DNA of 64,000 bases, taken from assembly GCA_938085425.1 (NCBI GenBank), contig CALKGQ010000014.1, positions 62,001 through 126,000 on the forward strand, given 5' to 3'. A program made the translations under genes and the position numbers. The notes under the pieces were generated by a model. It saw only the letters and a program-made list of their open reading frames with translations, was not told the DNA's origin and searched no databases. Shown here in pieces: positions 8,037 to 55,545 of this stretch. The DNA comes from an uncultured Flavobacteriales bacterium. Lineage in GTDB: Bacteria > Bacteroidota > Bacteroidia > Flavobacteriales_D > Sanyastnellaceae. Within the stretch, counting starts at the first letter, position 1, and every line of letters begins with the position of its first letter.

Positions 8037-8044
8037 CGAAGGTA
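8037..8044 (-). promoter_or_regulatory. recR -7 promoter box (TACCTTCG, 4 nt before GTG)
   Basis: TACCTTCG followed by TCCC and the GTG of recR. The same twelve-base block precedes the ATG at 47038. It implies transcription starting on the start codon. Confidence 0.65.
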
Positions 8045-8078
8045 CAGAATGGCAGGGTGCGACCACCTCGGTAGGACG

Positions 8079-8086
8079 TACATTTG
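8079..8086 (+). promoter_or_regulatory. Symporter -7 promoter box (TACATTTG, 5 nt before ATG)
   Basis: A perfect TAnnTTTG, 5 bases before the ATG at 8092. It lies over the alternative recR ATG (8083), a further argument against that start. Confidence 0.65.
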
Positions 8087-8091
8087 AACGC

Positions 8092-9573
8092 ATGAGTCCC
8101 AGCATCGCCATCCTCATCACCGTGGGCTACGTCGGCCTGTTGCTTGGCATCGGTTGGTGGAGTTCGTGGAGGGCGGGACCACAGGACTTGGCCACGGACG
8201 ACCGCGGCTTCTTCGTCGCAGGTCAAAGCGCACCTTGGTATGTGGTCGCCTTCGGAATGGTCGGCGCCTCCCTGTCTGGCGTGACCTTCTTGAGCATTCC
8301 CGGATGGGTGCGCTCACAGGAGTGGACCTACCTTCAGATGGTCGCGGGTTATTGCATTGGATACGTGATTGTTGCAACCATCCTCCTACCCCTTTACTAT
8401 AAGCTTGGCCTGACCAGCATTTACGGGTACTTGGGCCAGCGGTTTGGGCGACAGGCCCACAAAACGGGGGCTGCCTTTTTCTTGTTGAGCAGGATCATCG
8501 GGGCATCGTTTCGTTTGTTCTTGGTCGTGTTGGTGCTGGATGTTCTCATCCTCGAACCTATGGCGGGCGGGCCCGCGCCCTGGAGTTGGTTCATGGGCAC
8601 CACCGCATCCGTGCTGGCCATCATTTATGCGTACACCCGCAAAGGCGGAATGAACACCGTGATCTGGACGGACACCCTTCAAACAGCATGCATGCTTCTG
8701 GCTGTGGTGCTCACCATTGGGGGCATCCTTTCTGCCGGAGGCCAAAGCTGGTCCAACCTCCCTCAAGTACTCGACGAGACGGGACTGACCCGCATTTGGG
8801 TGACGGAAGATTGGCGTTTGGGCAACCACTGGGTCAAGCACATTCTGGCCGGCATGTTTGTCACCGTGGCCATGACTGGGCTCGACCAAGACATGATGCA
8901 AAAAAACCTGGCCTGCAAAAATGTCCGCGAATCGCAATGGAACATGGGGGCGTTCACCGTTGTGCTCGTCGGCGCGAACGTCTTGTTCTTGAGCATGGGC
9001 GCACTCCTTTGGATGCATGCCGAACGCATTGGCATGCCCTTGCCCGAGGCCACGGACAGGCTGTACCCCATGGTGGCCATGGGGGGATCCTTGGGGCCGT
9101 GGTTGGGGGTCGCTTTTTTGGTGGGTCTGTTGGCCTCGGCATTCAGCTCCGCAGATTCCGCCCTGACGGCCTTGACGACGTCCACCTGCGTGGACTTGCT
9201 GGACACGCCAAGCATGGAAGGCGACAAGGGCATGGTCACCCGCAAGCGCGTGCACCTTGGCATGGCGATGGCGCTATGGTTGGTCATCTTGGCCTTTCAC
9301 GCCGTGAACGACACCTCAGTGGTCGCTGCGCTGTTCACTGTCGCGAACTACACTTACGGTCCCCTGCTCGGACTCTTTGCGGTAGGGCTGGGCACGACTT
9401 GGCAGCCCCGCACCCAGTGGATCGCCTGGGTCTGTGTCGCGGCCCCCATTTTGGGGTACACCACAGAGACCTTGTTGGGGGCCACTGTGGGGTTCTCCTT
9501 TGGCTTCGCCCTACTGCCCGTCAACGGACTGTGGACAGCCTTGGGGCTGTGGTGCATATCTCGTCGTTCATAA
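8092..9573 (+). CDS. Sodium:solute symporter (SSS family)
   Basis: A 493-residue inner membrane protein with about 13 hydrophobic helices, the size and topology of the SSS family. The N-terminal region has the family pattern of an unwound first helix (GRGFFVAGQSAPW-like, here DRGFFVAGQSAPWYVV) and GASLSGVTFLSIPG. A Ser/Thr-rich stretch at FSSADSALTALTTSTCVDLL (about 350-370) matches the sodium-2 site helix. It should import a small solute with Na+; the substrate (sugar, nucleoside, amino acid or vitamin) cannot be read from the sequence. It is divergent from recR with a leaderless-type promoter, and is followed 67 bases later by the aminotransferase gene, which has a box of its own. Confidence 0.88.
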   Translation: MSPSIAILITVGYVGLLLGIGWWSSWRAGPQDLATDDRGFFVAGQSAPWYVVAFGMVGASLSGVTFLSIPGWVRSQEWTYLQMVAGYCIGYVIVATILLPLYYKLGLTSIYGYLGQRFGRQAHKTGAAFFLLSRIIGASFRLFLVVLVLDVLILEPMAGGPAPWSWFMGTTASVLAIIYAYTRKGGMNTVIWTDTLQTACMLLAVVLTIGGILSAGGQSWSNLPQVLDETGLTRIWVTEDWRLGNHWVKHILAGMFVTVAMTGLDQDMMQKNLACKNVRESQWNMGAFTVVLVGANVLFLSMGALLWMHAERIGMPLPEATDRLYPMVAMGGSLGPWLGVAFLVGLLASAFSSADSALTALTTSTCVDLLDTPSMEGDKGMVTRKRVHLGMAMALWLVILAFHAVNDTSVVAALFTVANYTYGPLLGLFAVGLGTTWQPRTQWIAWVCVAAPILGYTTETLLGATVGFSFGFALLPVNGLWTALGLWCISRRS

Positions 9574-9597
9574 AGGGCTTCTGTCGGAGGGGCACCG

Positions 9598-9605
9598 TAT
9601 TTTTG
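9598..9605 (+). promoter_or_regulatory. Possible -7 box of aminotransferase gene
   Basis: TATTTTTG, a perfect TAnnTTTG, 35 bases before the ATG at 9641; it would give a leader of roughly 30 bases. Confidence 0.4.
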
Positions 9606-9640
9606 AGCACGCATTCTCAGCATTCATTTCAGCTCTTCCC

Positions 9641-10840
9641 ATGCAACCCACCACTTCTCAATTGCTCCAACGTCTGAGCGAATCGGCCACGATTGCCATG
9701 GCCAGAAAAGCCCGCGAATTGAAGGCCCAAGGAGTCGATGTCATTTCCCTTTCACTCGGCGAGCCCGACTTTGACACTCCTGCGGCCATGAAGCAAGCAG
9801 GCATTGATGCCATCGAGGCGAACGAGACGCATTACACCCCTGTGCCCGGCACCCCAAGGATCCGAGAGGCCATCGTGCACAAGTTCCAAAGGGACAACGG
9901 CCTCGCGTACGCCATGGATGAAGTGGTCGTCAGCACAGGTGCAAAGCAAAGCCTTGCCAATGTCGTCCTGTCCTTGGTGGACCCAGGGGACGAAGTCATC
10001 TTGCCTGCGCCTTATTGGGTGAGCTATGAAGAAATCGTCAAGGTGGCTGGCGGAATTCCCGTGGTGTTGCCCACAAGCATCGACGACGATTACAAGATTC
10101 AACCTCAGGCCTTGGAGGCGGCCATCACCCCGAAAACAAGGCTGGTCATGTACTCCTCCCCATGCAACCCGTCGGGATCCGTCTACACCGAGGAGGAGAC
10201 TGCCGCACTTGCGGCGGTGCTGCTTCGTCACGACAGGGTCGTGACCATCAGCGATGAGATTTATGAACTGATCAACTTCACAGAGAAGCACGCCAGCATG
10301 GCTGCACAACCAGGCATGTGGGAACGAACTGTGACGGTCAACGGGGTCTCCAAAGGGTTCGCCATGACAGGCTGGCGCTTGGGCTACATCGGTGCACCCA
10401 AGTGGATTGCAGCGGCATGCACCAAGATCCAGGGGCAATTCACATCTGCGCCCTCAAGCATCACCCAAGCAGCAGCAGCGGCAGCCTTGGAAGCCGACCC
10501 CTCCGCTGTTGCAGCTCCCATGGTGGAGGCTTTCCGGAGGCGACGGTCCCTCATGGTGGATGGTCTTTCAAAGGTCCCCGGATTCCAGGTCAACCAACCG
10601 ATGGGGGCATTTTACGTGTTTCCCGATGTCAGTGCGCTGTTTGGCAAAAGCCATGCAGGAGGTGTGGTGAAAGACGCCAATGACCTTTCCTTCTATCTGT
10701 TGGAACAAGCTCAGGTGGCTTCGGTCAGCGGCGCGGCCTTTGGCACCCCTGAGTGCATCCGACTTTCTTATGCTGCCGCAGACGATGTCCTCGAAGAAGC
10801 CATCCGTCGGATTGCCCAAGCCTGTGCACTTCTGCACTAA
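9641..10840 (+). CDS. PLP-dependent aminotransferase class I (AspC-like)
   Basis: A 399-residue fold-type I aminotransferase, of the usual length for bacterial class Ib aspartate or prephenate aminotransferases. Key residues seen: the YWVSY substrate loop, NPSG (176-179) for the cofactor phosphate side, SDEIYE with D205 and Y208, the Schiff-base lysine K238 in VNGVSKGFAMTGWRLGY, and the carboxylate-binding arginine in CIRLSYA near the C-terminus. It likely transfers an amino group between aspartate or a related amino acid and 2-oxoglutarate in the cytoplasm. The open frame extends upstream to 9434 but that part lies inside the symporter gene; the ATG at 9641 gives the family N-terminus (LSESATIAMARKARELKAQG). 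Confidence 0.9.
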   Translation: MQPTTSQLLQRLSESATIAMARKARELKAQGVDVISLSLGEPDFDTPAAMKQAGIDAIEANETHYTPVPGTPRIREAIVHKFQRDNGLAYAMDEVVVSTGAKQSLANVVLSLVDPGDEVILPAPYWVSYEEIVKVAGGIPVVLPTSIDDDYKIQPQALEAAITPKTRLVMYSSPCNPSGSVYTEEETAALAAVLLRHDRVVTISDEIYELINFTEKHASMAAQPGMWERTVTVNGVSKGFAMTGWRLGYIGAPKWIAAACTKIQGQFTSAPSSITQAAAAAALEADPSAVAAPMVEAFRRRRSLMVDGLSKVPGFQVNQPMGAFYVFPDVSALFGKSHAGGVVKDANDLSFYLLEQAQVASVSGAAFGTPECIRLSYAAADDVLEEAIRRIAQACALLH

Positions 10841-10845
10841 GTCAC

Positions 10846-10853
10846 GACCTTTG
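10846..10853 (+). promoter_or_regulatory. Possible -7 box of heptose kinase gene (GACCTTTG)
   Basis: GACCTTTG, one mismatch from TAnnTTTG at the first base, 5 bases before the ATG at 10859. The spacing matches the leaderless class seen elsewhere in the window. Confidence 0.4.
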
Positions 10854-10858
10854 GCCTG

Positions 10859-11890
10859 ATGTCGGACCCCAGCACTTCTCCCCGCGTTCGTTCCTTGCCT
10901 TGGGATGCCCCACGGGCTTGTGTTTTAGGGGACGTGATGTTGGATGCCTACATGTGGGGGTCAGTGACCCGCCAAAGCCCTGAGGCACCTGTCCCGGTGG
11001 TCGACATTGCTCAACGCGAACGACGGGTGGGCGGTGCGGCCAATGTGGTCAAAAACCTGCACGCCCTTGGGGCGCAGGTGGACTTGATCAGCGTTGTGGG
11101 GCAAGACGGTCCCGGACAAGAGCTTCAGCATCTCCTCGAAGGCATGTGCCGTCCCCATTTGATCGTCGATGCGCATCGGCCCACCACAGTCAAGACAAGG
11201 GTCATCAGCGATGAAAAGCATGTGCTCAGGGTCGACGAGGAGTCGACCGAATGGATTTCAGATGCTTTGGTGGCGAAGGCCTTGGATGCCCTCGACCAAG
11301 TGCTGTCAGGTCCCAATCGCCCCGATGTGGTGGTCGTCGAGGACTACGACAAAGGCATGATGTCCCCTGCCATGGTGAAGGGTGCGTTGGCGCGCTGCCG
11401 GGAGGCAGGAGTGCCCGTGGCCGTGGACCCAAAGTTTCGGCAATTTGGCCTGTACGAAGGAGTCGCCCTTTTCAAACCCAATCTGAAGGAGCTCAACGAA
11501 GGTCTCCGCTTGAAGGTGGCCGCCCACCCTGAGCATGCTGGGGCCATGAAGGAAGCTGTGGAAGCATTGATGTCCCAACTTCAATGCGAGCGGCTCATGG
11601 TCACGCTCAGTGAGCATGGCACTTGGATGCACGCGCCCTTGGAAGGCATTCACCACCAGCACTTGCCCGCTTTGCCTCGGGACATCAAGGACGTCAGCGG
11701 CGCGGGAGACACTGTGATTGCAGTGGCGGCTCTCTTGCTGGCCTCTGGTTGCGACTCCAGCCTTTTGGCCGCGGTGTCCAACATGGCTGGAGGCTGGGTC
11801 TGCGAGCGCGTGGGGGTCGTCCCCATCTCAAAAAGTGAACTGGAGAAAGAGTGGTGCCGGCTCTTTCCCGACGACACCCTCTCCCCTTGA
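10859..11890 (+). CDS. rfaE1: D-glycero-beta-D-manno-heptose-7-phosphate kinase (RfaE domain I)
   Basis: A 343-residue PfkB-family kinase matching the kinase half of HldE/RfaE: it phosphorylates heptose-7-phosphate on the way to ADP-heptose for the lipopolysaccharide core. Seen: ACVLGDVMLDAYMWGSVTRQSPEAPVPV-type substrate pattern near the N-terminus (positions 21-45), RRVGGAANVVKNL, VVVEDYDKGM, and the catalytic base in SGAGDT (D284). The nucleotidyltransferase half is absent, as is usual for Bacteroidota, where the two activities sit on separate proteins; the partner gene is not in the window. It starts a plus-strand run with the TrkH, ubiE/menG and aroA genes. Confidence 0.88.
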   Translation: MSDPSTSPRVRSLPWDAPRACVLGDVMLDAYMWGSVTRQSPEAPVPVVDIAQRERRVGGAANVVKNLHALGAQVDLISVVGQDGPGQELQHLLEGMCRPHLIVDAHRPTTVKTRVISDEKHVLRVDEESTEWISDALVAKALDALDQVLSGPNRPDVVVVEDYDKGMMSPAMVKGALARCREAGVPVAVDPKFRQFGLYEGVALFKPNLKELNEGLRLKVAAHPEHAGAMKEAVEALMSQLQCERLMVTLSEHGTWMHAPLEGIHHQHLPALPRDIKDVSGAGDTVIAVAALLLASGCDSSLLAAVSNMAGGWVCERVGVVPISKSELEKEWCRLFPDDTLSP

Positions 11891-13710
11891 CCTGGCAATC
11901 CTTCCGAGAACGGGCCAACGTTTGGCTGTACAACAGCAAGGAATCGGTCCTAGGAACGTTTCAATGGCTCAATCTGCTGGTCAATGTCATGGCCCTTGTG
12001 GTCCTGGCCTTGTACTATGGGTATGCGCACGAGCCGGACACTTCAACGCTTCTGTTCCAGCTCGTCAAGGCCAGTTTTGGCTTCTACGTGTTCCATTACG
12101 GCCTTCGCGTCCTTTATCATTTTCACCCGCGTCAATTCCTGCGTGAAACTTGGCCCGAAGGACTCGTCATGGCCTTGTTGCTCGTGGAAGGTGCCGGTGA
12201 CGTCTTTTGGGGCACGCCCTTTCTTGGGGAGGCATTGAACCGTCTTGTGCCCAGCATCACCGACTTCAGCACGGTGCTGATCCAAGGGTATTTGCTGGCG
12301 GTGATCATCTCTGAATCGCTGCGGCCTGGTTCCCGGTTGCCCAAGGTTCGGCTCCATCCGGCTGTTGTTTTCATCCTGAGCTTTTTGCTCCTCATCGGCG
12401 TGGGCACTTGGTTGCTCAACATGCCTGAAATGACCACCGTCGAGGGGCACATGCCTTGGGTGGACGCCTTCTTCACCGCCACCAGTGCCACGTGCGTGAC
12501 AGGACTCATGAGTGTGGACACCATGACCTACTTCACCGCCAAAGGACACTGGGTGTTGTTGCTTCTCATTCAATTGGGCGGGTTGAATTTCATCGCCTTT
12601 GGCTCCTTTCTCGCACTGGTGTCCAAATTTGGCGTGGCGGTCAAGCAGCACGACGTCATCGAGGATTTTGTGAACAGCGAAAGCCTTCTTGGAAGCTCTG
12701 GATCTTTGGGGAAGGTGGTGCTTTGGTGCTTGGGGCTGGAAGCCCTTGGCGCACTGGCACTCATGATGCTTTGGAGCCCTGACGTCCCGTTTGATTCATG
12801 GGGCGAGCGTCTCTTCTCCTCCGTCTTTCACAGTGTCTCCGCCTTCAACAATGCAGGCATCACCCTATTCACCGACGGGTTGGCCCATCCATGGGTGGCC
12901 ACCAACTGGCTGGTGCATTGGGTGATCACTGTTCTGGTGTTTCTCGGCGCATTGGGCATGGTGGCCATGTTTGACCTCTTCGACCTGGCCAAACTGCGCG
13001 AACGAATGGCACAGCCCTGGAAAACCATTTCATTCCCGACGAAAATCGCCCTCTACTTTTCCACAGGGCTTGTCGCTTTGGGCGCTGTTGCATTTGGTGT
13101 CCTCGAGTGGAGCGGCACCATGCAAGGCATGTCGTGGTTTGGCAAATTCACCACCGCCGTGTTCCAAAGTGTGACAAGGACCAGTGGCTTCAACACGGTG
13201 GACATTGGGTCTGTGGGGATGCCCATGCTCTTTTTGCTGATGGTCTTGATGTTCATCGGGGCTTCCTCAAGCTCCACGGGTGGCGGCATCAAAACCTCCA
13301 CATTGGCCATTGTGCTGGCGGACGTGTGGCGCACCGTACGTGGTGCAGACCACGTCCAGATCTTCCAACGCACCGTGCATGCTGTGCTGCGCTCCCGCGC
13401 ATACAGTGTGTTGCTGTTTTTTTTGGCAGGGAACATGGTGGGCATCTTCTTGCTGACGGTCACAGAATCTCATCTCGTCCTTCATGAAGGAGTGGCCTTT
13501 TTTGACCTGGCCTTCGAGCATGTGAGCGCGATGGGCACCGTCGGACTGAGCACAGGACTCACCGCGCAGCTGTCTTCTGCTGGCAAGTTGATTTTGGCCA
13601 CTGCCATGTTCGTGGGCAGGGTCGGCACCTTGACGGTGGCATTCGCCGTAGGCGGCAGGACCCTTCAATCGCACTTCAAATACCCAGACGGTCACACCAT
13701 GGTGGGTTGA
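11887..13710 (+). CDS. TrkH/KtrB-type potassium uptake permease
   Basis: A 607-residue membrane protein of the Trk/Ktr/HKT superfamily, which brings K+ into the cell. The four pore loops are recognisable, each with its selectivity glycine: TSATCVTGL, SVSAFNNAGI, VTRTSGFNTV and VSAMGTVGLST. About 150 N-terminal residues with extra helices precede the pore module, as in other Bacteroidota members. The chosen start is a TTG that overlaps the stop of the kinase gene (TTGA); an ATG at 11851 in the same frame would need a 40-base overlap. No TrkA/KtrA gating subunit gene is in the window, so it must be elsewhere. Confidence 0.88.
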   Translation: MTWQSFRERANVWLYNSKESVLGTFQWLNLLVNVMALVVLALYYGYAHEPDTSTLLFQLVKASFGFYVFHYGLRVLYHFHPRQFLRETWPEGLVMALLLVEGAGDVFWGTPFLGEALNRLVPSITDFSTVLIQGYLLAVIISESLRPGSRLPKVRLHPAVVFILSFLLLIGVGTWLLNMPEMTTVEGHMPWVDAFFTATSATCVTGLMSVDTMTYFTAKGHWVLLLLIQLGGLNFIAFGSFLALVSKFGVAVKQHDVIEDFVNSESLLGSSGSLGKVVLWCLGLEALGALALMMLWSPDVPFDSWGERLFSSVFHSVSAFNNAGITLFTDGLAHPWVATNWLVHWVITVLVFLGALGMVAMFDLFDLAKLRERMAQPWKTISFPTKIALYFSTGLVALGAVAFGVLEWSGTMQGMSWFGKFTTAVFQSVTRTSGFNTVDIGSVGMPMLFLLMVLMFIGASSSSTGGGIKTSTLAIVLADVWRTVRGADHVQIFQRTVHAVLRSRAYSVLLFFLAGNMVGIFLLTVTESHLVLHEGVAFFDLAFEHVSAMGTVGLSTGLTAQLSSAGKLILATAMFVGRVGTLTVAFAVGGRTLQSHFKYPDGHTMVG

Positions 13711-13713
13711 ACC

Positions 13714-13729
13714 GGAGGGGCTTTCCTCC
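13714..13729 (+). other. Short inverted repeat between trkH-like and menG genes
   Basis: GGAGG and CCTCC arms around a 6-base loop. There is no T-tract after it, so it is more likely an mRNA processing or folding element than a terminator. Confidence 0.3.
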
Positions 13730-13757
13730 TGTTGCACCTTTGACCAACACTCTACAC

Positions 13758-16596: not shown

Positions 16597-16604
16597 AACT
16601 TTCG
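16597..16604 (+). promoter_or_regulatory. Possible -7 box of Mur ligase gene (AACTTTCG)
   Basis: AACTTTCG, two changes from TAnnTTTG, 4 bases before the ATG at 16609. The spacing equals that of the strong cases. Confidence 0.4.
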
Positions 16605-19438: not shown

Positions 19439-19446
19439 CAAAGATA
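19439..19446 (-). promoter_or_regulatory. dtxR-zip operon -7 box (TATCTTTG, 4 nt before ATG)
   Basis: A perfect TAnnTTTG on the minus strand, followed by ACGT and the regulator ATG, so the mRNA is probably leaderless. Confidence 0.65.
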
Positions 19447-21204: not shown

Positions 21205-21212
21205 TACCTTTG
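21205..21212 (+). promoter_or_regulatory. pyrG -7 promoter box (TACCTTTG)
   Basis: A perfect TAnnTTTG 18 bases before the pyrG ATG, giving a predicted leader of about 14-15 bases. Confidence 0.5.
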
Positions 21213-23925: not shown

Positions 23926-24129
23926 TTGAAAATGATTTAATTGTTGCCACAAAGCAACGCCTGAGCTTGTCCAGTTCACACGCCCCCTCTTCCTTTGAAT
24001 CAACAACTGGTTGTTAAACAAGGGTGTTGATTGCTGATTGTCAACATATTGCGTCGATATTTTCTGCATACGAACGACCCTGTTCATTGGACACTTCGTT
24101 GGCCAAGGCAGTCCAAGTACCTTTGAAAC
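23926..24129. other. Divergent intergenic region with small dyads
   Basis: This 204-base region lies between the small OMP gene and the ABC-F gene. It holds an AACAAC-TG-GTTGTT dyad at 24002-24015, a GTTGC/GCAAC hairpin at 23943-23958 in the predicted leader of the OMP gene, and the ABC-F promoter box at its right end. On the minus strand TTGCTTTG (23950-23957) is one mismatch from TAnnTTTG. No gene was seen. Confidence 0.5.
24118..24125 (+). promoter_or_regulatory. ABC-F gene -7 box (TACCTTTG, 4 nt before ATG)
   Basis: A perfect TAnnTTTG followed by AAAC and the ATG at 24130. Confidence 0.6.
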
Positions 24130-27150: not shown

Positions 27151-27158
27151 CGAAAGTA
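27151..27158 (-). promoter_or_regulatory. paaE -7 box (TACTTTCG, 4 nt before ATG)
   Basis: TACTTTCG followed by TGCC and the paaE ATG; one change from TAnnTTTG, with the leaderless spacing. Confidence 0.55.
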
Positions 27159-27219: not shown

Positions 27220-27227
27220 TAACTTTG
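27220..27227 (+). promoter_or_regulatory. paaA operon -7 box (TAACTTTG)
   Basis: A perfect TAnnTTTG 16 bases before the paaA ATG. A second ATG at 27236, 8 bases after the box, opens a three-codon frame that ends in an ATGA overlap with paaA. Confidence 0.55.
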
Positions 27228-30199: not shown

Positions 30200-31980
30200 G
30201 CCGACAATTGCATCTCAAACAGATTCCGGTAAGCCCCCTGTCGTTCCAGCAAACTGTCGTGCGTTCCCTGCTCGACAATGGCGCCATGCTGCAAGACCAC
30301 AATGCGGTCGGCGTCCCGCACGGTGTTCAACCGATGCGCCACAAGCAAGGATGTCCGTCCCTTTGTGATGGCCTCTGTGGCCCGTTGGATCCATTGTTCG
30401 CTTTCGCTGTCGATGCTCGAGGTGGCCTCGTCCAACATCAAAATGTGAGGGTCGCTCAAATACGCCCTGACAAAGGCAATGAGCTGCCTCTGCCCCACAC
30501 TCAATGTCGCACCACGCTCACGTACGTCGTGGTCGAGACCCTCCGGCAAACGCTCCACCACACGCTCCGCCCCAACAGCGCGTATGGCGGTCCACATCTG
30601 ATCATCCGTCACCTCAGCATCGTGAAGCCTTAGGTTCTCACGAAGGGAACCGCTGAACAGGAACACATCCTGCAGCACCACGCCAATCTTGGACCGAAGT
30701 TCATCCACGGGGACGTTGCGGATGTCCACACCGTCGATGGTGATGGATCCTTTTTGGAATTCATAGAGCCTTGAAATCAAATTGATCATGGAGCTCTTTC
30801 CCGCCCCTGTTGCGCCAACAAAGGCCACCCTCTGTCCAGGCTGGATGTCCAAGCTGACGTCGCGAAGGACCCAGTCGGGGGTCCCGTCTTCTTTGTCGCT
30901 GTATGCAAACCATACCTTCTCGAACCGAATGTGCCCCGACCAGCTTGGAGATGTCGGCTGGGTGGGTTCCGGCATTCGGTCCTCACGGTCGAGCAACTTG
31001 AAGACCCTGTCGGCGTTCACAATGCCCATTTGCAGCACATTGAACCGGTCCGCCAATTGGCGAATGGGGCGGTACAACATGAAAACGTAAAGGATGAACT
31101 GCAAGACCACCCCCAGCGTCAAGTCCGATTCCGCCACCCTTCCGATGCCCAACCACAGCAAAAGCCCTACGCTGGTCGCACTGAGCAGTTCCACCACAGG
31201 AAAGAACACGCTGAAGGCCCATATGCTCCGGATGTTGGCCTCTCTATGCGCACCATTGATGTCGGCAAAGGCCTCCGCCTCTTTTTCCTCCCGGCCAAAG
31301 GCCTGCACAATGTGCATGCCCGTCACATGCTCTTGGACAAACTCATTGATTTCCGCGACCCGGTTGCGAACATCCACAAAGGCACTCTTGATGTGTTTTT
31401 GGAAGATTCGGGTTGCCCAAAGCAACACAGGGATGGGCAACAGGACGATCAAGGTCAGTGACCAATCGATCCAAAACATGGCCGCCATCACCACCGCCAG
31501 GGAGAGAATGTCGCCAAACGCATTGAGCAACCCATTGCTGAACACATTGGCAATGCCATCGATGTCGCTGACATGACGCGTCACAAGCGCGCCAACTGGG
31601 GTTTGGTCAAAGTACTTGAGACGAAACCGAGAGACATGTCTGTACAACCGTGCCCTCAGGTCCAAACTCACACTTTGCGCCACCCAATTCGCCAAATACG
31701 TCACCCGGTACTGGACCAATGCCTCCACCACGAGCACCCCCACAACCATCAGGAAAACGCGCAAGAGCCCCTCCATGTCGCCCGCAGCAATGTGCACATC
31801 CACGGCCTGTTGGATGAGGGCAGGGCGGATCCAGACCAAACTTGACAGCAACAGCACCAGTGCACCCGTCCATAGAAAGCGTCTGCGGTAAGGAAGGACT
31901 TGCTGGAGGATGGTCCGAACGGTGTCCCAGTCAAATACTTTGCCTGCTTTGGAGCTGGGGTTCTGTCCTTGGGTGGCCAT
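30187..31980 (-). CDS. ABC exporter, MsbA-like (permease-ATPase fusion)
   Basis: A 597-residue half-transporter. Six membrane helices (residues 1 to about 330) are followed by an ATPase domain with Walker A GATGAGKSS, Q-loop VLQDVFLFSGSL, signature TLSVGQRQL, Walker B ILMLDEATSSID and the switch histidine in LLVAHRLNT. It would act as a dimer, exporting a lipid or hydrophobic compound; MsbA-type lipid A flipping is possible but not shown. Its promoter box TACCTTTG lies inside the last codons of truA, and 4 bases separate the box from the ATG. It may thus be transcribed both alone and by read-through from truA. Confidence 0.88.
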   Translation of the reverse strand: MATQGQNPSSKAGKVFDWDTVRTILQQVLPYRRRFLWTGALVLLLSSLVWIRPALIQQAVDVHIAAGDMEGLLRVFLMVVGVLVVEALVQYRVTYLANWVAQSVSLDLRARLYRHVSRFRLKYFDQTPVGALVTRHVSDIDGIANVFSNGLLNAFGDILSLAVVMAAMFWIDWSLTLIVLLPIPVLLWATRIFQKHIKSAFVDVRNRVAEINEFVQEHVTGMHIVQAFGREEKEAEAFADINGAHREANIRSIWAFSVFFPVVELLSATSVGLLLWLGIGRVAESDLTLGVVLQFILYVFMLYRPIRQLADRFNVLQMGIVNADRVFKLLDREDRMPEPTQPTSPSWSGHIRFEKVWFAYSDKEDGTPDWVLRDVSLDIQPGQRVAFVGATGAGKSSMINLISRLYEFQKGSITIDGVDIRNVPVDELRSKIGVVLQDVFLFSGSLRENLRLHDAEVTDDQMWTAIRAVGAERVVERLPEGLDHDVRERGATLSVGQRQLIAFVRAYLSDPHILMLDEATSSIDSESEQWIQRATEAITKGRTSLLVAHRLNTVRDADRIVVLQHGAIVEQGTHDSLLERQGAYRNLFEMQLSAYTG

Positions 31981-31983: not shown

Positions 31984-32769
31984 TCAAAGGTATCCCTCGT
32001 CGGATGGCGAAAACACCTCAGGCGGGTAAATCACCTTGGTGAGGTACAGCCCGCATCCCAACACGCTTTTTCCTGCGGCGCTCCGATGGGCTGCCGCAAG
32101 AACGTCCACCATGCTCTCTGGGGTACGCTTGCCGTGCCCGACCTCCAACAGGGTACCCACCACCGCCCGCACCATGTTGCGCAAAAAGCGGTCGGCACTG
32201 ATGTGGAACGCCCATTGATGAGGTCCGATTTGTTCCCAGCGGGCTTCGCGCACATCACAGATGGTGGTTCCCTGTCCAGTGCCCGCCTTGCAAAACGAGG
32301 CGAAATCGCCTTTTTGGACCAAATGGGCAGCGGCCTCTTGCATCGCTTCGAGGTTGAGCTCTCCAAAAATCCGGGTGCTTTTTCCTTCCAGGAAAGGATC
32401 TTTGCTGTTGTGAACATGGTAGGCGTAGCTGCGCTCGACGGCATCGAAACGCGCATGGGCCTTGGCCCCTACTTGGTGCATCGCCTTCAGTCCAATGTCT
32501 TTGGGAAGCATCCCGTTGAGCTTCATGGTGGCCTCCTGCATCGAGGACACACGGCCGTGAAAGACTTCGTCGTTTATGACAGTGTGTGCCACAAAATACC
32601 TGGCGTGGACACCTGTGTCCGTCCTTCCGCAACCCATCACCGAAAAAGACTGTCCAAACAGGCGCTCCATGGCCCCTTCAAGCACCTCCTGAACCGTCGT
32701 GCACTCCGGCTGACGTTGCCACCCGTGGTAGTGGGTGCCATCGTACGACAGCTCAAGGAATACCCGCAT
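31984..32769 (-). CDS. truA: tRNA pseudouridine(38-40) synthase
   Basis: A 261-residue TruA, which makes pseudouridine in the tRNA anticodon stem. It has the family start FLELSYDGTHYHGWQRQP and the catalytic aspartate in GCGRTDTGVHA, followed by RSYAYHV, and FLRNMVRAVVGTLLEVG near the C-terminus. The length is standard. It begins 5 bases after the alpha-oxoamine synthase gene and is probably co-transcribed with it. Confidence 0.94.
   Translation of the reverse strand: MRVFLELSYDGTHYHGWQRQPECTTVQEVLEGAMERLFGQSFSVMGCGRTDTGVHARYFVAHTVINDEVFHGRVSSMQEATMKLNGMLPKDIGLKAMHQVGAKAHARFDAVERSYAYHVHNSKDPFLEGKSTRIFGELNLEAMQEAAAHLVQKGDFASFCKAGTGQGTTICDVREARWEQIGPHQWAFHISADRFLRNMVRAVVGTLLEVGHGKRTPESMVDVLAAAHRSAAGKSVLGCGLYLTKVIYPPEVFSPSDEGYL
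31985..31992 (-). promoter_or_regulatory. ABC exporter -7 box overlapping truA stop
   Basis: TACCTTTG on the minus strand encodes the last two sense codons of truA, and its TTTG contains the first two bases of the TGA stop. AGTC and the exporter ATG follow. Confidence 0.6.
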
Positions 32770-34130: not shown

Positions 34131-34138
34131 TACTTTCG
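34131..34138 (+). promoter_or_regulatory. bamD -7 box (TACTTTCG, 5 nt before ATG)
   Basis: TACTTTCG, 5 bases before the ATG at 34144. It favours this start over ATG codons further upstream in the same frame. Confidence 0.5.
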
Positions 34139-41592: not shown

Positions 41593-41600
41593 CAAAAATA
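41593..41600 (-). promoter_or_regulatory. TonB-dependent receptor -7 box (TATTTTTG)
   Basis: A perfect TAnnTTTG on the minus strand, 10 bases before the ATG, implying a leader of about 6-7 bases. Confidence 0.5.
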
Positions 41601-45963: not shown

Positions 45964-47007
45964 TCAGGGGTCCTTTCGGCCCAACCTGTGCATGGCTTCA
46001 ATGGCCCTTACCACCGCCAATCCCTCTGAGATGGGGGTCGCCACCTCCCCGCCGTGCAAGAGCACATCCATGACATTCGCATACACGTGGTGGTGGTTGT
46101 TCGCAGATCCTTTGTAGCCTCCGTAATCGTTCGCAGGCGGCGCAGGTGGCATTTGGGGGAGCTCCTTCCCATCCACTTCGAATGCCTCAAGCTTGTCCAT
46201 GTATTGCCCACCAATGCGCACTGTGCCCTGGCTGCCCATGACCGTCATGCTGCTTTCAAAATTCGCTTGGGCGGCCGACGTGCTGAACACCAAGGTTCCC
46301 CAACCTCCATTGCGCAGGGCAAACCTGACCAAGCCACCATCTTCAAATTCTGTGGAGTCCCGGTGGGTTTCTTGCACAAAATGGGCACTCTGAACATCAA
46401 GGTCGCCAAACACCCACATCAAAATGTCCAGAAAATGTGAGAATTGAGTGAACAACGGCCCCCCATCCAAGGCCATCGTCCCCCGCCATGAACCAGGCGT
46501 GTAATAACGGCCATCTCGGTTCCAAAGGCACTTGACATGGACTTGCAACACTTCCCCAAAGAGGTTCTCCATGGAAGCTTGCTTCAGCCATTGCGCCGCC
46601 GGGGCATACCGGTTCTGCATGACCCCGAACACATGCACACCTCGGGCGCTCGCTTGAGAGGCCAAGGACTCTACGGAAGCCACCGTCAACCCCATGGGCT
46701 TTTCGACCACGACGTGCTTGCCTGCGGCAACAGCGCATGCTGCAAGATCAACATGGGTGCCGTTGGGCGTGCAAATGGCCACGACATCAATCTCATCTCC
46801 ACAACCGTTCAGGGCTTCGGGGAGTCCCACAAAGGACTTTGCCTCGGGGGCGAATGAAGCAGGCAATGCGCGGCCATCTCCCTTGTCTTCCCACCTCACA
46901 TCCACCACCACTTGCACAATCGCCTCAGGGTGGGCTTGGACCATGGCGACATGTCGGCGGCCAATGTGACCGCATCCCACCACTGCAAATCTGACTGGCG
47001 TTCGCAT
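45964..47007 (-). CDS. Gfo/Idh/MocA family oxidoreductase
   Basis: A 347-residue NAD(P)-dependent dehydrogenase. The Rossmann motif is FAVVGCGHIGRRHVAMV (about 6-22), followed by CTPNGTHVDLA, and the catalytic-lysine motif EKPMG (about 98). The C-terminal beta-sheet domain has WNRDGRYYTPGSWRGTMALDGG, a pattern found in sugar and nucleotide-sugar dehydrogenases of this family such as WlbA. The likely substrate is a UDP-sugar or a sugar derivative, possibly for surface polysaccharides. A TACCTTTG box ends 4 bases before the ATG. It is divergent from the metal-receptor gene with only 30 bases between the start codons. Confidence 0.85.
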   Translation of the reverse strand: MRTPVRFAVVGCGHIGRRHVAMVQAHPEAIVQVVVDVRWEDKGDGRALPASFAPEAKSFVGLPEALNGCGDEIDVVAICTPNGTHVDLAACAVAAGKHVVVEKPMGLTVASVESLASQASARGVHVFGVMQNRYAPAAQWLKQASMENLFGEVLQVHVKCLWNRDGRYYTPGSWRGTMALDGGPLFTQFSHFLDILMWVFGDLDVQSAHFVQETHRDSTEFEDGGLVRFALRNGGWGTLVFSTSAAQANFESSMTVMGSQGTVRIGGQYMDKLEAFEVDGKELPQMPPAPPANDYGGYKGSANNHHHVYANVMDVLLHGGEVATPISEGLAVVRAIEAMHRLGRKDP

Positions 47008-47011: not shown

Positions 47012-47019
47012 CAAAGGTA
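47012..47019 (-). promoter_or_regulatory. Oxidoreductase -7 box (TACCTTTG, 4 nt before ATG)
   Basis: A perfect TAnnTTTG followed by CGCC and the ATG at 47007. It is the left arm of an inverted arrangement with the box at 47026. Confidence 0.6.
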
Positions 47020-47025
47020 GACCAC

Positions 47026-47033
47026 TACCTTCG
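47026..47033 (+). promoter_or_regulatory. Metal-receptor gene -7 box (TACCTTCG, 4 nt before ATG)
   Basis: TACCTTCG followed by TCCC and the ATG at 47038; the same twelve bases precede the recR GTG. Confidence 0.6.
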
Positions 47034-47037
47034 TCCC

Positions 47038-47790: not shown

Positions 47791-47856
47791 ATGCCGACAG
47801 CCTGTCAGCCCATGGGGCCCGGACATGTCGCTCTTGACAGGCCCAAGGCGGGAACG

Positions 47857-47880
47857 TTGACAGGTTGACAGGTTGACAGT
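47857..47880 (+). repeat. Three tandem TTGACAGG units upstream of dnaK
   Basis: Three 8-bp direct repeats (the last ends in T instead of G), with a fourth copy of TTGACAGG at 47834-47841. They end about 70 bases before the dnaK ATG. They may bind a regulator or be part of the dnaK promoter. Confidence 0.5.
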
Positions 47881-47900
47881 GCCTCAAAAGCAGTTGGCAT

Positions 47901-47919
47901 CAGGTTTGACCTAAGGAGG
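47901..47919 (+). promoter_or_regulatory. dnaK promoter-like box and distant AAGGAGG
   Basis: CAGGTTTG (47901-47908) is one mismatch from TAnnTTTG. AAGGAGG follows at 47913-47919. It is identical to a strong Shine-Dalgarno sequence but lies 30 bases before the ATG, too far for normal use, and no start codon follows it at the usual distance. Confidence 0.4.
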
Positions 47920-47949
47920 ACAAATCAAAACAACAATCAACCCCTCAAC

Positions 47950-49863: not shown

Positions 49864-49887
49864 TCTCCTCGCCTGCGAGTCCCAAAG

Positions 49888-49918
49888 AAAAAGCCCTGCA
49901 TTTTTGCAGGGCTTTTTT
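49888..49918 (+). terminator. dnaK rho-independent terminator
   Basis: A perfect stem (AAGCCCTGCA with TGCAGGGCTT) flanked by A- and T-runs, 25 bases after the dnaK stop. Confidence 0.9.
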
Positions 49919-49965
49919 GCGTTTGGATGAACCGGAAGGGAACACGGGTGTTCCAACTCTACATC

Positions 49966-52254
49966 ATGAAACCTCCCCTGCCAAAGACCTCGTCAGATCA
50001 AGTCCCCTCCTCTTGGAGGCGTTTGGCGTGGGGCACTCTGGCGGCCCTTGTCGGGGTCACCGCCTGGATGGCTTGGATGGCCACTTCCTTGGAATTCAAC
50101 TACGACTTCGAGCAGTTCTTTCCCAAAGACCATCCCGAGACCAAATTCTACAGGGAGTTCCGTGACGACTTTGGCAGCGACAACGACTTTCTCATTGTCG
50201 GTTTTGAAGGGAACGAAATCTCCGCGGATTTTTTGGCAGAAATGGATGCCCATGTGGAGGCCTTGAAGGCCTTGCCTCATGTTGAAAGCGTCCAATCCCC
50301 TACCCGACTCGAGCTTCCAGTTCGCGACCCATTGAGCGGGATGGCCTTTCAGCGGCCTCTGTTGCAATGGCGAGACAGTGCACAATTGGCCCAGGACTTG
50401 ATTCGACTTCGCGAACGAGACGACATCGTCGGCACTTTGGTCAGCCCAAGCGGTCGGGCCATGGCCCTGAGTTTGGAACACACACAGGCGCTGAGCAAAG
50501 CGGGATGTGACAGCTTGGCCCAAGCCGTGCTTGCCTGGAAGGAGACTGCCTTGGAGCAACGCGAGCACATCAAAGGCATCCATGTGGCGGGACGGGCGGT
50601 GGCCCAAGCCTATTACGTGGGGGTGATGGAGACGGAAGTCCTTTGGTTTGTGGGGGTGGGCATCCTTCTTCTCGTAGGGTTTTTGTGGGGCGCCTTCCGC
50701 ACAAGCTGGGGAGTCTTGGTCCCGCTCGCCGTGGTCTTGGTCAGCGGGCTCTGGACCTTGGGCATCATGGTCGGCACAGGGAAAGCTGTCGACGTGATGA
50801 CGGTGGTGCTTCCCACCATCCTCTTTGTCGTGGGCATCTCCGATGTGGTTCACGTCCTCACCAGATACTACGACGAACGGCGCCAAGGGAGTTCTCATCC
50901 GGAAGGAATGAGACGGGCATTCAAAGAAGTGGGTTTGGCCACCTTTTTGACTTCGCTGACCACCGCCCTCGGGTTTTTGACCTTGTTGACGAGTTCCATT
51001 GGACCTGTGCACGACTTTGGTTTGTACGCCGCTGTGGGGGTCGGCGTGGCGTACGTTTTGGCCTTCACACTCCTGCCAAGTGTCATGGTCCTCGCCCCTC
51101 CACCAGACGTCTCCAACCAAGGAACTGGCGTCTTCTGGAACCGACAGCTTCATGCTCTTTTGAGATGGACGCTTCGTCACAAGGCAGCCTTGGCCTTGGG
51201 GTGGGTGGTGATCGCGGGAGGCAGTGCTTGGATGGGGAGCCAGCTACAAGTGGACAACAAGCTCATTGAAGACTTGAGGGAAGACGACCCCTTTCGCCAG
51301 GAATTTGTGTTTTTTGAGCGTGAGTTCGCCGGGGTCAGGCCCTTTGAATGCTCGGTAAAAATGCCGGCCGACATCTCGGAAATGGACATGTTGACGGTGA
51401 TTGGAAGCCTCGAAGATTACCTAAAATCAGACTATGACGTGGGTGCCCTCATGGGACCTGCCACTGCCATGTGCATGGCGCACCGTGGCTTCATGGGCGA
51501 CCGGGAATCCTATTTTCGTGTCCCGAAGGACAAACGCACCTTCAGGAAGTTGCTGCAAATCCTGACACGGTCTGGCCAGTGGTCCACTGTGGTCTCTGAG
51601 GATGGACGCCAAGCAAGGATTTTTGGCAAGGTTGAAGACCTCGGTTCTCAGCATCTGGCGCGCAAGAATGAAGACTTGCAGCGCTGGTGCGCCTCCAATT
51701 TGCCAGAAGGAAGTCAATGCAAGGTCACGGGCACTGCACACCTCGTCGACGTCAACAATGCTTCCCTTGCATCGGACATGGTGGGAGGCCTGGGACTGGC
51801 CCTGCTCGCTGTGGCCATTTTGGCTGGACTTCTGTTCCGAAGTGGGGTCATGGTGGTCATTTGTTTGGTCACCAATGTGCTCCCTCTCGCCATGATTGCG
51901 GCCATCATGGTGCTTCTTGGGTTGGACTTGAAAGTGACCTCCGGCATCATCTTCACCGTCGCCTTTGGCATCGCGGTGGACGACACCATCCATTTCCTCA
52001 GCAAACTCAGACTTCAGCTGGGACAAGGGAGATCCTTGCCAATGGCCGTGAAAAGGAGCTTTTTGTCCACCGGGAAGGCCATTGTGGTCACAAGCTTGAT
52101 TCTCTGTGGTGGCTTTCTCACTTTGACCTCGTCTTCCTTTTTGGGGACCTTCCACATTGGTCTTCTGATCAGCTTGACCCTGCTCTTCGCAGTGCTTGCA
52201 GACCTCACATTCCTACCGTGGCTCGTCTTGCGTTGGTTTCGGGCGCCAAAGTGA
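49966..52254 (+). CDS. RND/MMPL family exporter
   Basis: A 762-residue membrane protein with the RND superfamily layout: one N-terminal helix (about 20-45), a large periplasmic domain, five helices (about 220-390), a second single helix (about 410-430), a second periplasmic domain, and five more helices. Motif FDFEQFFPKDHPETKFY-like (here YDFEQFFPKDHPETKFY) after the first helix is typical of MMPL/HpnN-type exporters, and the paired intramembrane acidic segments (for example ISDVVHVLTRYYDE and AVDDTIHFLSKL) are present. It may export lipids or hopanoid-like molecules. The ATG at 49966 is chosen over 49927, which would put 13 non-membrane residues in front and starts one base after a promoter-like TGCGTTTG. 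Confidence 0.83.
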   Translation: MKPPLPKTSSDQVPSSWRRLAWGTLAALVGVTAWMAWMATSLEFNYDFEQFFPKDHPETKFYREFRDDFGSDNDFLIVGFEGNEISADFLAEMDAHVEALKALPHVESVQSPTRLELPVRDPLSGMAFQRPLLQWRDSAQLAQDLIRLRERDDIVGTLVSPSGRAMALSLEHTQALSKAGCDSLAQAVLAWKETALEQREHIKGIHVAGRAVAQAYYVGVMETEVLWFVGVGILLLVGFLWGAFRTSWGVLVPLAVVLVSGLWTLGIMVGTGKAVDVMTVVLPTILFVVGISDVVHVLTRYYDERRQGSSHPEGMRRAFKEVGLATFLTSLTTALGFLTLLTSSIGPVHDFGLYAAVGVGVAYVLAFTLLPSVMVLAPPPDVSNQGTGVFWNRQLHALLRWTLRHKAALALGWVVIAGGSAWMGSQLQVDNKLIEDLREDDPFRQEFVFFEREFAGVRPFECSVKMPADISEMDMLTVIGSLEDYLKSDYDVGALMGPATAMCMAHRGFMGDRESYFRVPKDKRTFRKLLQILTRSGQWSTVVSEDGRQARIFGKVEDLGSQHLARKNEDLQRWCASNLPEGSQCKVTGTAHLVDVNNASLASDMVGGLGLALLAVAILAGLLFRSGVMVVICLVTNVLPLAMIAAIMVLLGLDLKVTSGIIFTVAFGIAVDDTIHFLSKLRLQLGQGRSLPMAVKRSFLSTGKAIVVTSLILCGGFLTLTSSSFLGTFHIGLLISLTLLFAVLADLTFLPWLVLRWFRAPK

Positions 52255-52267
52255 CGAACTTCCCGAC

Positions 52268-53272
52268 ATGGGAAAGGCCAACCGACGAGACTTTTTGAAA
52301 CGACTTGCTGCCACAGGAGCTGCCTTGGGCTTGGCCCCTTGGAGCATCGAATCCATGCTGCAAGCTTCTGCATCGACCAGCGCATCGGCTTCTCCGGGCC
52401 TTGGTGCATCGGGAAAGGCCACCATGTTGTCCACTTGGAACCACGGCATCGAGGCCAATGCAGCAGGGTTTCTCGCCCTCCAACAAGGGGGGACAGCGAT
52501 GGACATGGTCGAAGCAGGGGCACGCATCGTCGAGTCCGATGCCACAGGGTTGAGTGTAGGGATTGGTGGACTGCCCGACCGGGATGGCCATGTGACACTT
52601 GATGCCTGTTGCATGGACCACACCGGGAATGCAGGGTCGGTTTGTTTTGTGCAAGGCCTCCCTCACCCCCTTTCCTTGGCCCGAAAGGTCATGGAAGATA
52701 CGCCTCATGTCATGCTGGCGGGTGCAGGCGCAGAGCAGTATGGCCAAGAACTTGGAATGACTCGAAGGGACTTGCTGACAGAAACTTCACGCAGGGCTTG
52801 GGAGGAATGGCGCAAGACTTCCAACTACGAACCCGTGATCAACATTGAGAACCACGACACCATTGGCATCTTGGCCCTGGACGATTCCGGGAGACTCTCA
52901 GGAGGCTGCACCACGAGTGGATTGGCCTACAAGATGCACGGACGAGTAGGTGACAGCCCCATCCTTGGTGCGGGACTTTTCGTGGATCCACAAGTTGGCG
53001 GAGCCACCGCCACGGGTCTTGGGGAAGCGGTGATGAAAACAGTGGGCTCTTTCCTGGTCGTTGAACTGATGAGGAATGGGGAAACACCCCAACAAGCTTG
53101 TGAGGAAGCCGTGCACCGAATCATGGAAGGCATGCCTACAGACGATTTGCAAGTTGGATACCTGGCCCTTTCCCACGATGGCAATTTCGGTGGACACGCC
53201 ATTCACGAAGGATTCAACTTCGCCCGCACAACGAGGCAAGGCGGTTCTATGATTGACGCCAGCCACGGTTGA
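52268..53272 (+). CDS. N4-(beta-N-acetylglucosaminyl)-L-asparaginase family Ntn-hydrolase
   Basis: A 334-residue Ntn-hydrolase of the glycosylasparaginase group. A twin-arginine signal (NRRDFLKRLAATGAALGLAP) begins the protein, so it is exported folded, often with the lipid or periplasmic pool. The self-cleavage site is clear: ENHDTIGILALD, with T198 the new N-terminal nucleophile of the beta subunit. GGIDxxxx-like glycine stretches (GLSVGIGGLPDRDGHVTLDAC, GCTTSGLAYK) line the active site. Known members remove the sugar-linked asparagine of degraded glycoproteins; here it may serve in glycopeptide recycling. The UbiA gene follows, with its first possible start overlapping this stop. Confidence 0.88.
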   Translation: MGKANRRDFLKRLAATGAALGLAPWSIESMLQASASTSASASPGLGASGKATMLSTWNHGIEANAAGFLALQQGGTAMDMVEAGARIVESDATGLSVGIGGLPDRDGHVTLDACCMDHTGNAGSVCFVQGLPHPLSLARKVMEDTPHVMLAGAGAEQYGQELGMTRRDLLTETSRRAWEEWRKTSNYEPVINIENHDTIGILALDDSGRLSGGCTTSGLAYKMHGRVGDSPILGAGLFVDPQVGGATATGLGEAVMKTVGSFLVVELMRNGETPQQACEEAVHRIMEGMPTDDLQVGYLALSHDGNFGGHAIHEGFNFARTTRQGGSMIDASHG

Positions 53273-53280
53273 CCCCTGAG

Positions 53281-54135
53281 ATGAATCCTTCTTCGACCTC
53301 AGCCTTTTTTCAATGGTGGCGTCTCACGCGGCCGTGGAATGTTCTGGCCATGGGCATCATGGTGACATTGGTCCTTCGCTGGCAAGGCTTCCCATTGATG
53401 GACTTGATGCATTTGGGAAGGGCTGGATGGGTCATCGTTCCGATGCTTGTGGGCGCAGCAGGGAATTTGATCAACGACTACTTTGACATCCGAGAAGACC
53501 GGATCAACAAACCAGACAAGGCACTTGTTGGCCGTACGGTCAAGCGCCGTGTGATCGTGGTGACACATTGGGGATTCACGGCTGCTGCGCTCATCTGCAG
53601 CGGTTGGCTTTCATCCCATACAGGCGCCTATTGGCCGATGATCATGGTCGCTGTATTTTCAGTTATCCTCTACTTGTACTCACCGCTTCTCAAGGGCCGA
53701 GGAGCTTGGGGAAATGTGGCCATTTCCGGATGTGTGGCGGGTTTGGTGGTGTGGGGCGGCTTGGCAGCTTTGAAGGGGACACACGCTCCTCCTCCTGCAT
53801 TGTGGATGTTTGCTGTGATCCTTGGATGGTTCAACTTCCTTCGTGAATGGGTCAAGGACGTTCAAGACATGGAGGGCGATCGCGCTGCGAACCACCGAAC
53901 ATTGGCCATGTCACTGACAACTCAGCAGAATCGATTTGGGGTCATTGTCGGCATCATTCTTGGCGGGTCATTCGTCATCATTTGGTCTTTGCAAGTGAAT
54001 TCGAGTTGGCTGATGATGTTGCCATGGCTGTTTGCTTTTTGCGCCGCCTTGGTCAGCGCAATTAAGCTTAAAACAACAAGCCTATCTGCTTGGTTAAAAG
54101 TGCTTCTAGGCTCTTTGTATCTATTTATAGTTTAA
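53281..54135 (+). CDS. UbiA-family prenyltransferase
   Basis: A 284-residue membrane prenyltransferase with about nine helices. The two Asp-rich motifs are present: NDYFDIREDRINKP (about 61-74) and KDVQDMEGDRAANH (about 192-205). Group members in Bacteroidota are often annotated as geranylgeranylglycerol-phosphate geranylgeranyltransferase, but the prenyl acceptor is not known. The ATG at 53281 is used; a TTG at 53269 overlapping the upstream stop (TTGA) would add four residues. AT-rich sequence at its end differs slightly from the rest of the gene. Confidence 0.85.
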   Translation: MNPSSTSAFFQWWRLTRPWNVLAMGIMVTLVLRWQGFPLMDLMHLGRAGWVIVPMLVGAAGNLINDYFDIREDRINKPDKALVGRTVKRRVIVVTHWGFTAAALICSGWLSSHTGAYWPMIMVAVFSVILYLYSPLLKGRGAWGNVAISGCVAGLVVWGGLAALKGTHAPPPALWMFAVILGWFNFLREWVKDVQDMEGDRAANHRTLAMSLTTQQNRFGVIVGIILGGSFVIIWSLQVNSSWLMMLPWLFAFCAALVSAIKLKTTSLSAWLKVLLGSLYLFIV

Positions 54136-54321
54136 CCTCCTTCCCCAAAGGACAGGGTTGGAGTTGGGGTTGCCCTTGGCACACCTTTCTCTTGCCCTCT
54201 TCACTTTGAAGGTGCTTTGACACCAAATCCTGACATGGCCCTTCACTGACGGGCCACAACTGACTCAGAAGTGGGAAATCCCGGACAAATGACCGGGCGC
54301 TTGCGTGATTCGATCGACGCT
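54136..54321. other. Convergent intergenic region with two hairpins
   Basis: Between the UbiA gene and the secreted propeller-like gene. GGCCC/GGGCC arms at 54237-54255 (9-base loop) and CCCGG/CCGGG arms at 54280-54297 (8-base loop) may end one or both transcripts, though neither has a clear T-tract. No gene seen. Confidence 0.4.
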
Positions 54322-55533
54322 TCAGTGATTGACTTGGATGACTTTTTGGACCTGTCCACCCGCGGTTCGCACAATGCGGATCGATGGAAAGCCCGGCAAT
54401 GAGGTCTCCCCAGTTCGCCCAAGCACATCCCACTCCCCTGCTGCGGCAGGCTGCTTCACAAGCGGTGCTTTCTCCCCTACGTCCGACACATCCAAAGACC
54501 GCCAGGCCAAAGAGCCCGGCGACACGCCCACAGGGACTGTAGCAATCCATTCGCCCTCAGAAGTTCGGAATTGAACTTCACCGAAGGTCTCATAATCCGT
54601 CACGCCTGTGCACGTCCAGCCAAATTCCGGATGGGAAATCAAGCTGTAAGCTGCAGGGGCGTCGGCGTTGAGAACTTCTCCCTCCCACGCCATGCTCGAG
54701 CCATCGAGCAAACGCAAGCCGCTTTCGCCACTGATTTGGATGGCCAACTTGGTGTCCAAGAATGCGGAGGCGTTGCAACCCGCGGACACACCTTCCAGTG
54801 TCACCGTCTCAATTGCAGAAATGTTGGCGAGATTTACTCGGGAAACCGACGTACTGGACCAGTCACCGTTGTTCACAGTGAAGAGGTTGCCATCCAAGAC
54901 GTGAAGGGCCACGGGGTTCTCCGCACCTTCACCCAAATCCCATTCTTCATAGATTTCCTCTACTGGGTCCCAACAGCCTAAAAGTCCTGCCTCTGCACCA
55001 GGAGCCCAGCCATTGTTGACTGCGATGTACACCTTCCCATCGACCAACCTCACCTCTTGACTTGGCAATGTTGGCCCTTCCTCCGGCGTCAACTCCGCAT
55101 CCAGGCTCAAATCACCACCATCCAACAACACCAAGTAGCTGCTGAGATCCAAAGGTTGCCAAACGTCATCCAGGCCACCTCTCGTGACCACCACGTCTCC
55201 ACCCTCTAGCAAGGTCGCCTCCTGGGCACCGAGAAGCTGGACATCTGCGAGGATTTGACCAGAAACCAAGTCCACCTTCACCACCCTGTTCTCAAGAACC
55301 ACGATGGCAACGTCTCCCATAATTTCTAGATCCGTGGCGTAGCCAACATCTTGAAAAGACAACAGTTCCTGGTAAGAAAATGAGGTCAGGTCTATCCGAC
55401 CAAGACTTGGTGGCGTTTCACTCAGCACCCAAAGTTCATCCTGGGCATTTGCATTCAAATGTAGGAGTGACAAAACGAACATCCACAAGGTGAAAAGCAC
55501 ATTCTGAGCGCGGCGATGATGAAAGTTGGTCAT
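54322..55533 (-). CDS. Secreted propeller-like protein with probable type IX sorting tail
   Basis: A 403-residue exported protein. A signal peptide (LFTLWMFVLSLLHLNANAQ) is followed by repeated blades (DLEIMGDVAIVVLENRVVKVDL, QEVRLVDGKVYIAVNNG, ALHVLDGNLFTVNNG) that suggest a YncE/NHL-like beta-propeller. The last 35-40 residues, EWDVLGRTGETSLPGFPS to GQVQKVIQVNH, resemble the type A C-terminal sorting domain (a DVLGR turn, then a strand pair and a basic end). It is therefore a probable type IX secretion substrate. A TAGTTTTG box ends 4 bases before the ATG. No catalytic residues were recognised. Confidence 0.75.
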   Translation of the reverse strand: MTNFHHRRAQNVLFTLWMFVLSLLHLNANAQDELWVLSETPPSLGRIDLTSFSYQELLSFQDVGYATDLEIMGDVAIVVLENRVVKVDLVSGQILADVQLLGAQEATLLEGGDVVVTRGGLDDVWQPLDLSSYLVLLDGGDLSLDAELTPEEGPTLPSQEVRLVDGKVYIAVNNGWAPGAEAGLLGCWDPVEEIYEEWDLGEGAENPVALHVLDGNLFTVNNGDWSSTSVSRVNLANISAIETVTLEGVSAGCNASAFLDTKLAIQISGESGLRLLDGSSMAWEGEVLNADAPAAYSLISHPEFGWTCTGVTDYETFGEVQFRTSEGEWIATVPVGVSPGSLAWRSLDVSDVGEKAPLVKQPAAAGEWDVLGRTGETSLPGFPSIRIVRTAGGQVQKVIQVNH

Positions 55534-55537
55534 GCCT

Positions 55538-55545
55538 CAAAACTA
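55538..55545 (-). promoter_or_regulatory. Propeller-protein -7 box (TAGTTTTG, 4 nt before ATG)
   Basis: A perfect TAnnTTTG followed by AGGC and the ATG at 55533. It lies between the giant gene's terminator and this gene. Confidence 0.6.

Follow-up and report, generated by a model that had tools for sequence, protein, structure and literature searches.

Does a short box that recurs just upstream of start codons in an uncultured member of the Flavobacteriales (family Sanyastnellaceae) make the RNA begin right at the start codon? Leaderless messages are familiar from other organisms, and the Bacteroidota are without Shine-Dalgarno leaders. In the window, by which we mean the whole stretch of 64,000 nucleotides analysed here, the initial annotation had listed ten transcription-unit starts with the sequence TAnnTT(T/C)G exactly 4 or 5 bases before the start codon, and had proposed reading it as the sigma-A -7 element of Bacteroidota, with leaderless transcripts being the main class in the lineage. 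All ten boxes (10/10) are present at these distances (Table 1). The ABC exporter at 31980 has the box at the right spacing but is not clearly the start of a transcription unit, since a co-directional ORF ends 3 bases upstream. The two near matches, at Mpl and the heptose kinase, were found as described and differ from the box by replacement of its first T. Overall, the window contains 25 TANNTTYG sequences compared to 15.2 expected, 10 of the 25 being the boxes already listed at a distance of 4-5 bases. Boxed starts are supported by family profiles that begin there, within residues 1-5 for Mpl/MurC, the metal receptor and PaaE (position 1 of the Mpl/MurC profile corresponds to residue 2 of Mpl from the boxed ATG 16609), and likewise for RecR from its GTG. 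The predicted propeller protein (ATG 55533) has no Pfam match. By far the longest ORF of the window (2775 residues) occupies positions 55650-63977 on the minus strand.

Spacing and conservation of the box

The genome (2.07 Mb in 56 contigs, 56% GC) contains TANNTTTG-N4-ATG (TANNTTTGN4ATG) 74 times, versus 2 occurrences of a reversed-pattern control, the top ratio among the ~400 Bacteroidota searched. When the distance from TANNTTTG to ATG was counted in 760 kb of this genome, without any gene calling, 29 boxes had a spacing of 4 and 10 a spacing of 5, compared to a mean of 3.1 over spacings 10-59, and spacings of 0, 1, 2 and 3 occurred 2, 3, 1 and 1 times, i.e. not above chance. The profile consists of a single sharp peak (at 4, then 5) followed by a broad tail. 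In the same 760 kb, TTCG and TTGG boxes gave the same peak (19 and 16, respectively, at spacing 4), and no peak was seen for TTAG, TTTT, TTTA, TTTC or CTTG boxes or for boxes without TA; the seventh base can be T, C or G, and is hardly ever A. The initial annotation had named a sharp peak at 4-5 bases in a genome-wide spacing count with a control as support for its proposal, and this is what we observed, both against the reversed pattern and in 20 Markov simulations, where TTYG boxes at spacings 4 and 5 numbered 8.4 (maximum 16) compared to 63 in the real sequence. With the box beginning at -12/-13, this excess has the form of the TA-led signal of Zheng et al. (2011). Start codons at spacing 4 from TTTG, TTCG or TTGG boxes comprise 64 ATG, 8 GTG and 7 TTG, with an ATG background of ~7, and show the strong preference for AUG expected of leaderless mRNAs. 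The counts confirm that the arrangement of box and start codon is real.

In G001, a congeneric comparison genome (median protein identity 74%), 10 of the 12 orthologs with a boxed start retain box and spacing, and column identity is 80-100% in the box (-12 to -5), 10-40% in the spacer (-4 to -2) and mostly 30-60% upstream. The ABC-F gene has the box in 10/10 genus genomes shown, at spacing 4 in seven and spacing 8 in three. In the other family members, 7 of 11 have it at 4-5 (in one of them the first T is a C) and one more at 6; relative to the protein, the start codon is displaced upstream by as many as five codons, and the box moves with it. The nearest named genomes, uncultured Flavobacteriales MAGs such as UBA7382, have ABC-F proteins ~78-79% identical and pattern counts that match those of same-genus genomes. 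G001 also has a minor peak at spacing 7, comprising 10 first-of-unit genes; together with the ABC-F spacing of 8 in three genus genomes, it possibly represents a class of very short leaders.

A compact arrangement is that of the divergent pair at 47007/47038, where 30 bases separate the two ATGs in the layout 4+8+6+8+4, with identical geometry in G001. Divergent gaps of up to 104 bases with two boxes occur five times in 760 kb of the own genome and four times in 732 kb of G001, and none was found in either sample with spacing-shifted controls. The 47007/47038 promoters may be mutually exclusive or bidirectional, since two polymerases could hardly bind simultaneously.

Table 1. Boxes, near matches and boxes at longer spacings (leadered) in the window.
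Type	Box	Position	Strand	Bases to start codon	Gene and start codon	Remark
box	TACCTTCG	8037..8044	-	4	recR, GTG 8032	RecR profile start fits 8032
box	TACATTTG	8079..8086	+	5	symporter (SSF), ATG 8092	
box	TATCTTTG	19439..19446	-	4	DtxR/MntR-type regulator, ATG 19434	conserved in G001
box	TACCTTTG	24118..24125	+	4	ABC-F, ATG 24130	retained by genus and by most of family
box	TACTTTCG	27151..27158	-	4	paaE, ATG 27146	G001 keeps box at spacing 5
box	TACCTTTG	31985..31992	-	4	ABC exporter (MsbA-like), ATG 31980	inside end of co-directional upstream ORF
box	TACTTTCG	34131..34138	+	5	bamD, ATG 34144	
box	TACCTTTG	47012..47019	-	4	Gfo/Idh/MocA oxidoreductase, ATG 47007	one half of back-to-back promoter
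box	TACCTTCG	47026..47033	+	4	TroA-like metal receptor, ATG 47038	second half of back-to-back promoter
box	TAGTTTTG	55538..55545	-	4	predicted propeller protein, ATG 55533	
near match	AACTTTCG	16597..16604	+	4 (ttcc)	Mpl, ATG 16609	
near match	GACCTTTG	10846..10853	+	5 (gcctg)	heptose kinase, ATG 10859	
leadered	TAACTTTG	27220..27227	+	16	ATG 27244	gene divergent from paaE
leadered	TATTTTTG	41593..41600	-	10	TonB receptor, ATG 41582	
leadered	TACCTTTG	21205..21212	+	18	ATG 21231	
leadered	TATTTTTG	9598..9605	+	35	ATG 9641	

The box as a putative promoter element and the predicted RNA start

Across 65 aligned sites, the element matches TAHHTTTG, the revised consensus for F. johnsoniae (PMC6847099), with G in 1% of sites at the fourth base and 13% at the third. 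Neither a -33 TTTG nor any other upstream element is enriched in these sites, bearing out the earlier remark that no consistent -33 TTTG was seen; F. johnsoniae likewise showed none (PMC6847099), so that the -33 element cannot be relied on to define such promoters. No enrichment of Shine-Dalgarno sequences was detected, and the 16S rRNA gene is absent from all 11 MAGs of the genus. The RpoD of this genome has 289 residues and aligns with SigA/RpoD chains over their C-terminal part only (e.g. E. coli RpoD residues 343-611), which makes it a short form without region 1.1. The base at -1 is C in 89% of boxed starts, compared to 58% at other starts and at internal Met codons. We therefore dropped C at -1 as a start-specific sign, and only the rise to 89% counts. 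T almost never precedes ATG in the samples of this genome and of G001.

The box could in principle be a non-Shine-Dalgarno signal that recruits ribosomes within an mRNA with a longer leader, and no promoter at all, a reading consistent with its fixed distance to the start codon, as for ribosome sites, and with the use of non-Shine-Dalgarno, A-rich contexts by Bacteroidota (PMC6847099). Operon-internal genes need ribosome sites too, however, and have the box at spacing 4-5 in 4 of 156 cases (all at 4, with few elsewhere), whereas divergent genes have TANNTT[TCG]G at this spacing in 30 of 168 cases and at 6-39 in 29. Its rarity within operons therefore argues for a promoter; its sequence is that of the known -7 element and other unit-leading genes have the identical box 6-40 bases upstream, making a ribosome signal very unlikely. 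Still less probable is an annotation artefact, in which the boxed ATG would be a chance codon and the true starts would lie further downstream. The start calls of our script are imperfect and other genes in the window show longer spacings, but the spacing peak is present without gene calling, the profiles of Mpl, the metal receptor, PaaE and RecR begin at the boxed start, and boxed ATG and spacing are conserved across species, shifting together; this explanation is already largely refuted. The identification of the box as the Bacteroidota sigma-A -7 element, on the other hand, is well supported by the spacing peak, the near-absence in operon-internal genes and the conservation.

In F. johnsoniae, the distance from the box to the transcription start is 4-5 bases (PMC6847099), and in F. 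psychrophilum the box lies at -12 to -5 (PMC9723704). Since published flavobacterial transcription starts lie 4-5 bases past the box, and using this Flavobacterium value for the genus, the RNA is predicted to begin at or within one base of the A of the ATG. The spacing peak coincides with both published figures, lending good support to the earlier suggestion that RNA would start on the start codon. The floor at a spacing of 4 is also as expected, since RNA starting there would not include a start codon any nearer to the box. The longer-leader promoters of the genus are A/T-rich after the box only from +7, have no clear purine at +5 and gave no clear +1 in an initiator test, so the exact +1 could be off by 1-2 bases. 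Mechanistically, the housekeeping Bacteroidota sigma factor would read the boxes as its -7 element, whose last G would occupy position -5 counted from the transcription start. A spacing of 4 would then make the A of the start codon +1, giving a leaderless message, and a spacing of 5 would leave a leader of 0-1 base. With this arrangement in about a quarter of unit-leading genes, no other single leader length in the genus would be as common as zero. We infer the RNA 5' ends and leaderless translation from the box, its spacing, its position dependence and its conservation, and consider it very likely that the box is a sigma-A -7 element producing leaderless mRNA from about a quarter of unit-leading genes. 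This predicts that initiation here depends on the ribosome's recognition of leaderless (5'-AUG) messages, and start annotation can be improved by taking a box at 4-5 bases as a mark of the start codon.

Predicted share of leaderless units

The 290 first-of-unit genes in the 760-kb sample correspond to an estimated ~790 unit-leading genes genome-wide. The ~70 sites above background with the box 4-5 bases before ATG in 760 kb correspond to ~190, so that boxed starts are estimated to lead ~190 of ~790 units, about a quarter. Of the divergent genes that have a box no more than 39 bases upstream, 30 of 59 in the own genome, 24 of ~58 in G001 and 11 of 64 in five relatives have it at spacing 4-5; the UBA7382 stretches (24 first-of-unit genes) were excluded from the counts as too short. 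The proposal of leaderless transcripts as the main class finds partial support only. Theirs is the commonest single spacing and accounts for about half of recognisable boxes, but a recognisable box at this distance precedes just about one quarter of the unit-leading genes, and accuracy is limited by the calling of starts by script (ortholog agreement 91/168 with the refined caller and 70/168 with the first). Leaderless starts are thus the modal class, with a majority not proven. That they are the dominant unit start in the genus (more than half of all promoters), the -7 box alone setting the start of both RNA and protein, seems rather doubtful to us; if true, this dominance would concern a phylum regarded as leadered.

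Leaderless starts might also be real but ordinary, the excess reflecting a low background at 56% GC and the share being that of other flavobacteria. The excess of the spaced pattern per Mb is indeed graded across relatives, from 34.8 in the own genome to 26.9 in the genus, 20.6 in the family, 10.1 in the order and 6.5 in the class (49 genomes tallied), with values of 43-45 per Mb in a handful of genomes from other genera. Our method also overestimates, since it gives a leaderless share of ~20% in silico in a Flavobacterium sample, compared to a measured 5.5% in F. psychrophilum (PMC9723704) and 13% for leaders of 10 or less in F. johnsoniae (PMC6847099); the true share here may thus be nearer 25-40%. 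However, the identical method gives 54 divergent genes at spacing 4-5 versus 63 at 6-39 in the two genus genomes, against 11 versus 53 in the five relatives (odds ratio 4.1, p 9e-5), and we regard an ordinary share as unlikely. The graded excess indicates that the trait is not unique to the genus, and among its relatives the transition between the two modes of initiation, leadered and leaderless, can be traced. Among families of other classes, two large ones are at or below about zero and f35, a distant Bacteroidota family, is at 10.0 per Mb. Nine f35 genomes show a 3:1 excess of box-N4-ATG, which suggests a second lineage with many leaderless genes.

Comparison with known systems

In the TA-led genes of Actinobacteria and Deinococcus-Thermus, which make up ~20-40% (Zheng et al., 2011; PMC3160421), leaderless genes are marked, as here, by a promoter box ~12 bases upstream of the start codon, although their box, TANNNT, is unlike ours. 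In the same survey, a single genome among the 37 from Bacteroidetes/Chlorobi gave a score, of 2.4%. Leaderless mRNAs in Bacteroidetes were suggested from base biases by Nakagawa et al. (2017; PMC5397173); C directly before the start codon is common to both studies, whereas their four genomes show an AT-rich bias at -20 to -10 and no spaced promoter box as here. From the transcription start maps of two flavobacteria and of Bacteroides it had seemed that leaderless mRNA could not account for the missing Shine-Dalgarno sequences, and our literature search, of incomplete coverage, turned up no account of leaderless mRNA being dominant in Flavobacteriales.

The promoters described here resemble the Bacteroidota sigma-A (sigma-ABfr) promoters mapped in F. 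johnsoniae, F. psychrophilum and B. thetaiotaomicron in their TAnnTTTG -7 element with hardly any G at bases 3 and 4, in a weak or absent -33 element and in a distance of 4-5 bases to +1, which in our case is predicted. They differ in allowing C or G at the seventh base and in the 56% GC content of their genome. The B. thetaiotaomicron map has 3.7% of leaders under 10 nt and, unlike the 3.7-13% measured in mapped Bacteroidota, about half of the recognisable boxes here are predicted from sequence to be at leaderless spacing. The leaderless mechanism is already known; what would be unusual is its high predicted share within the Bacteroidota.
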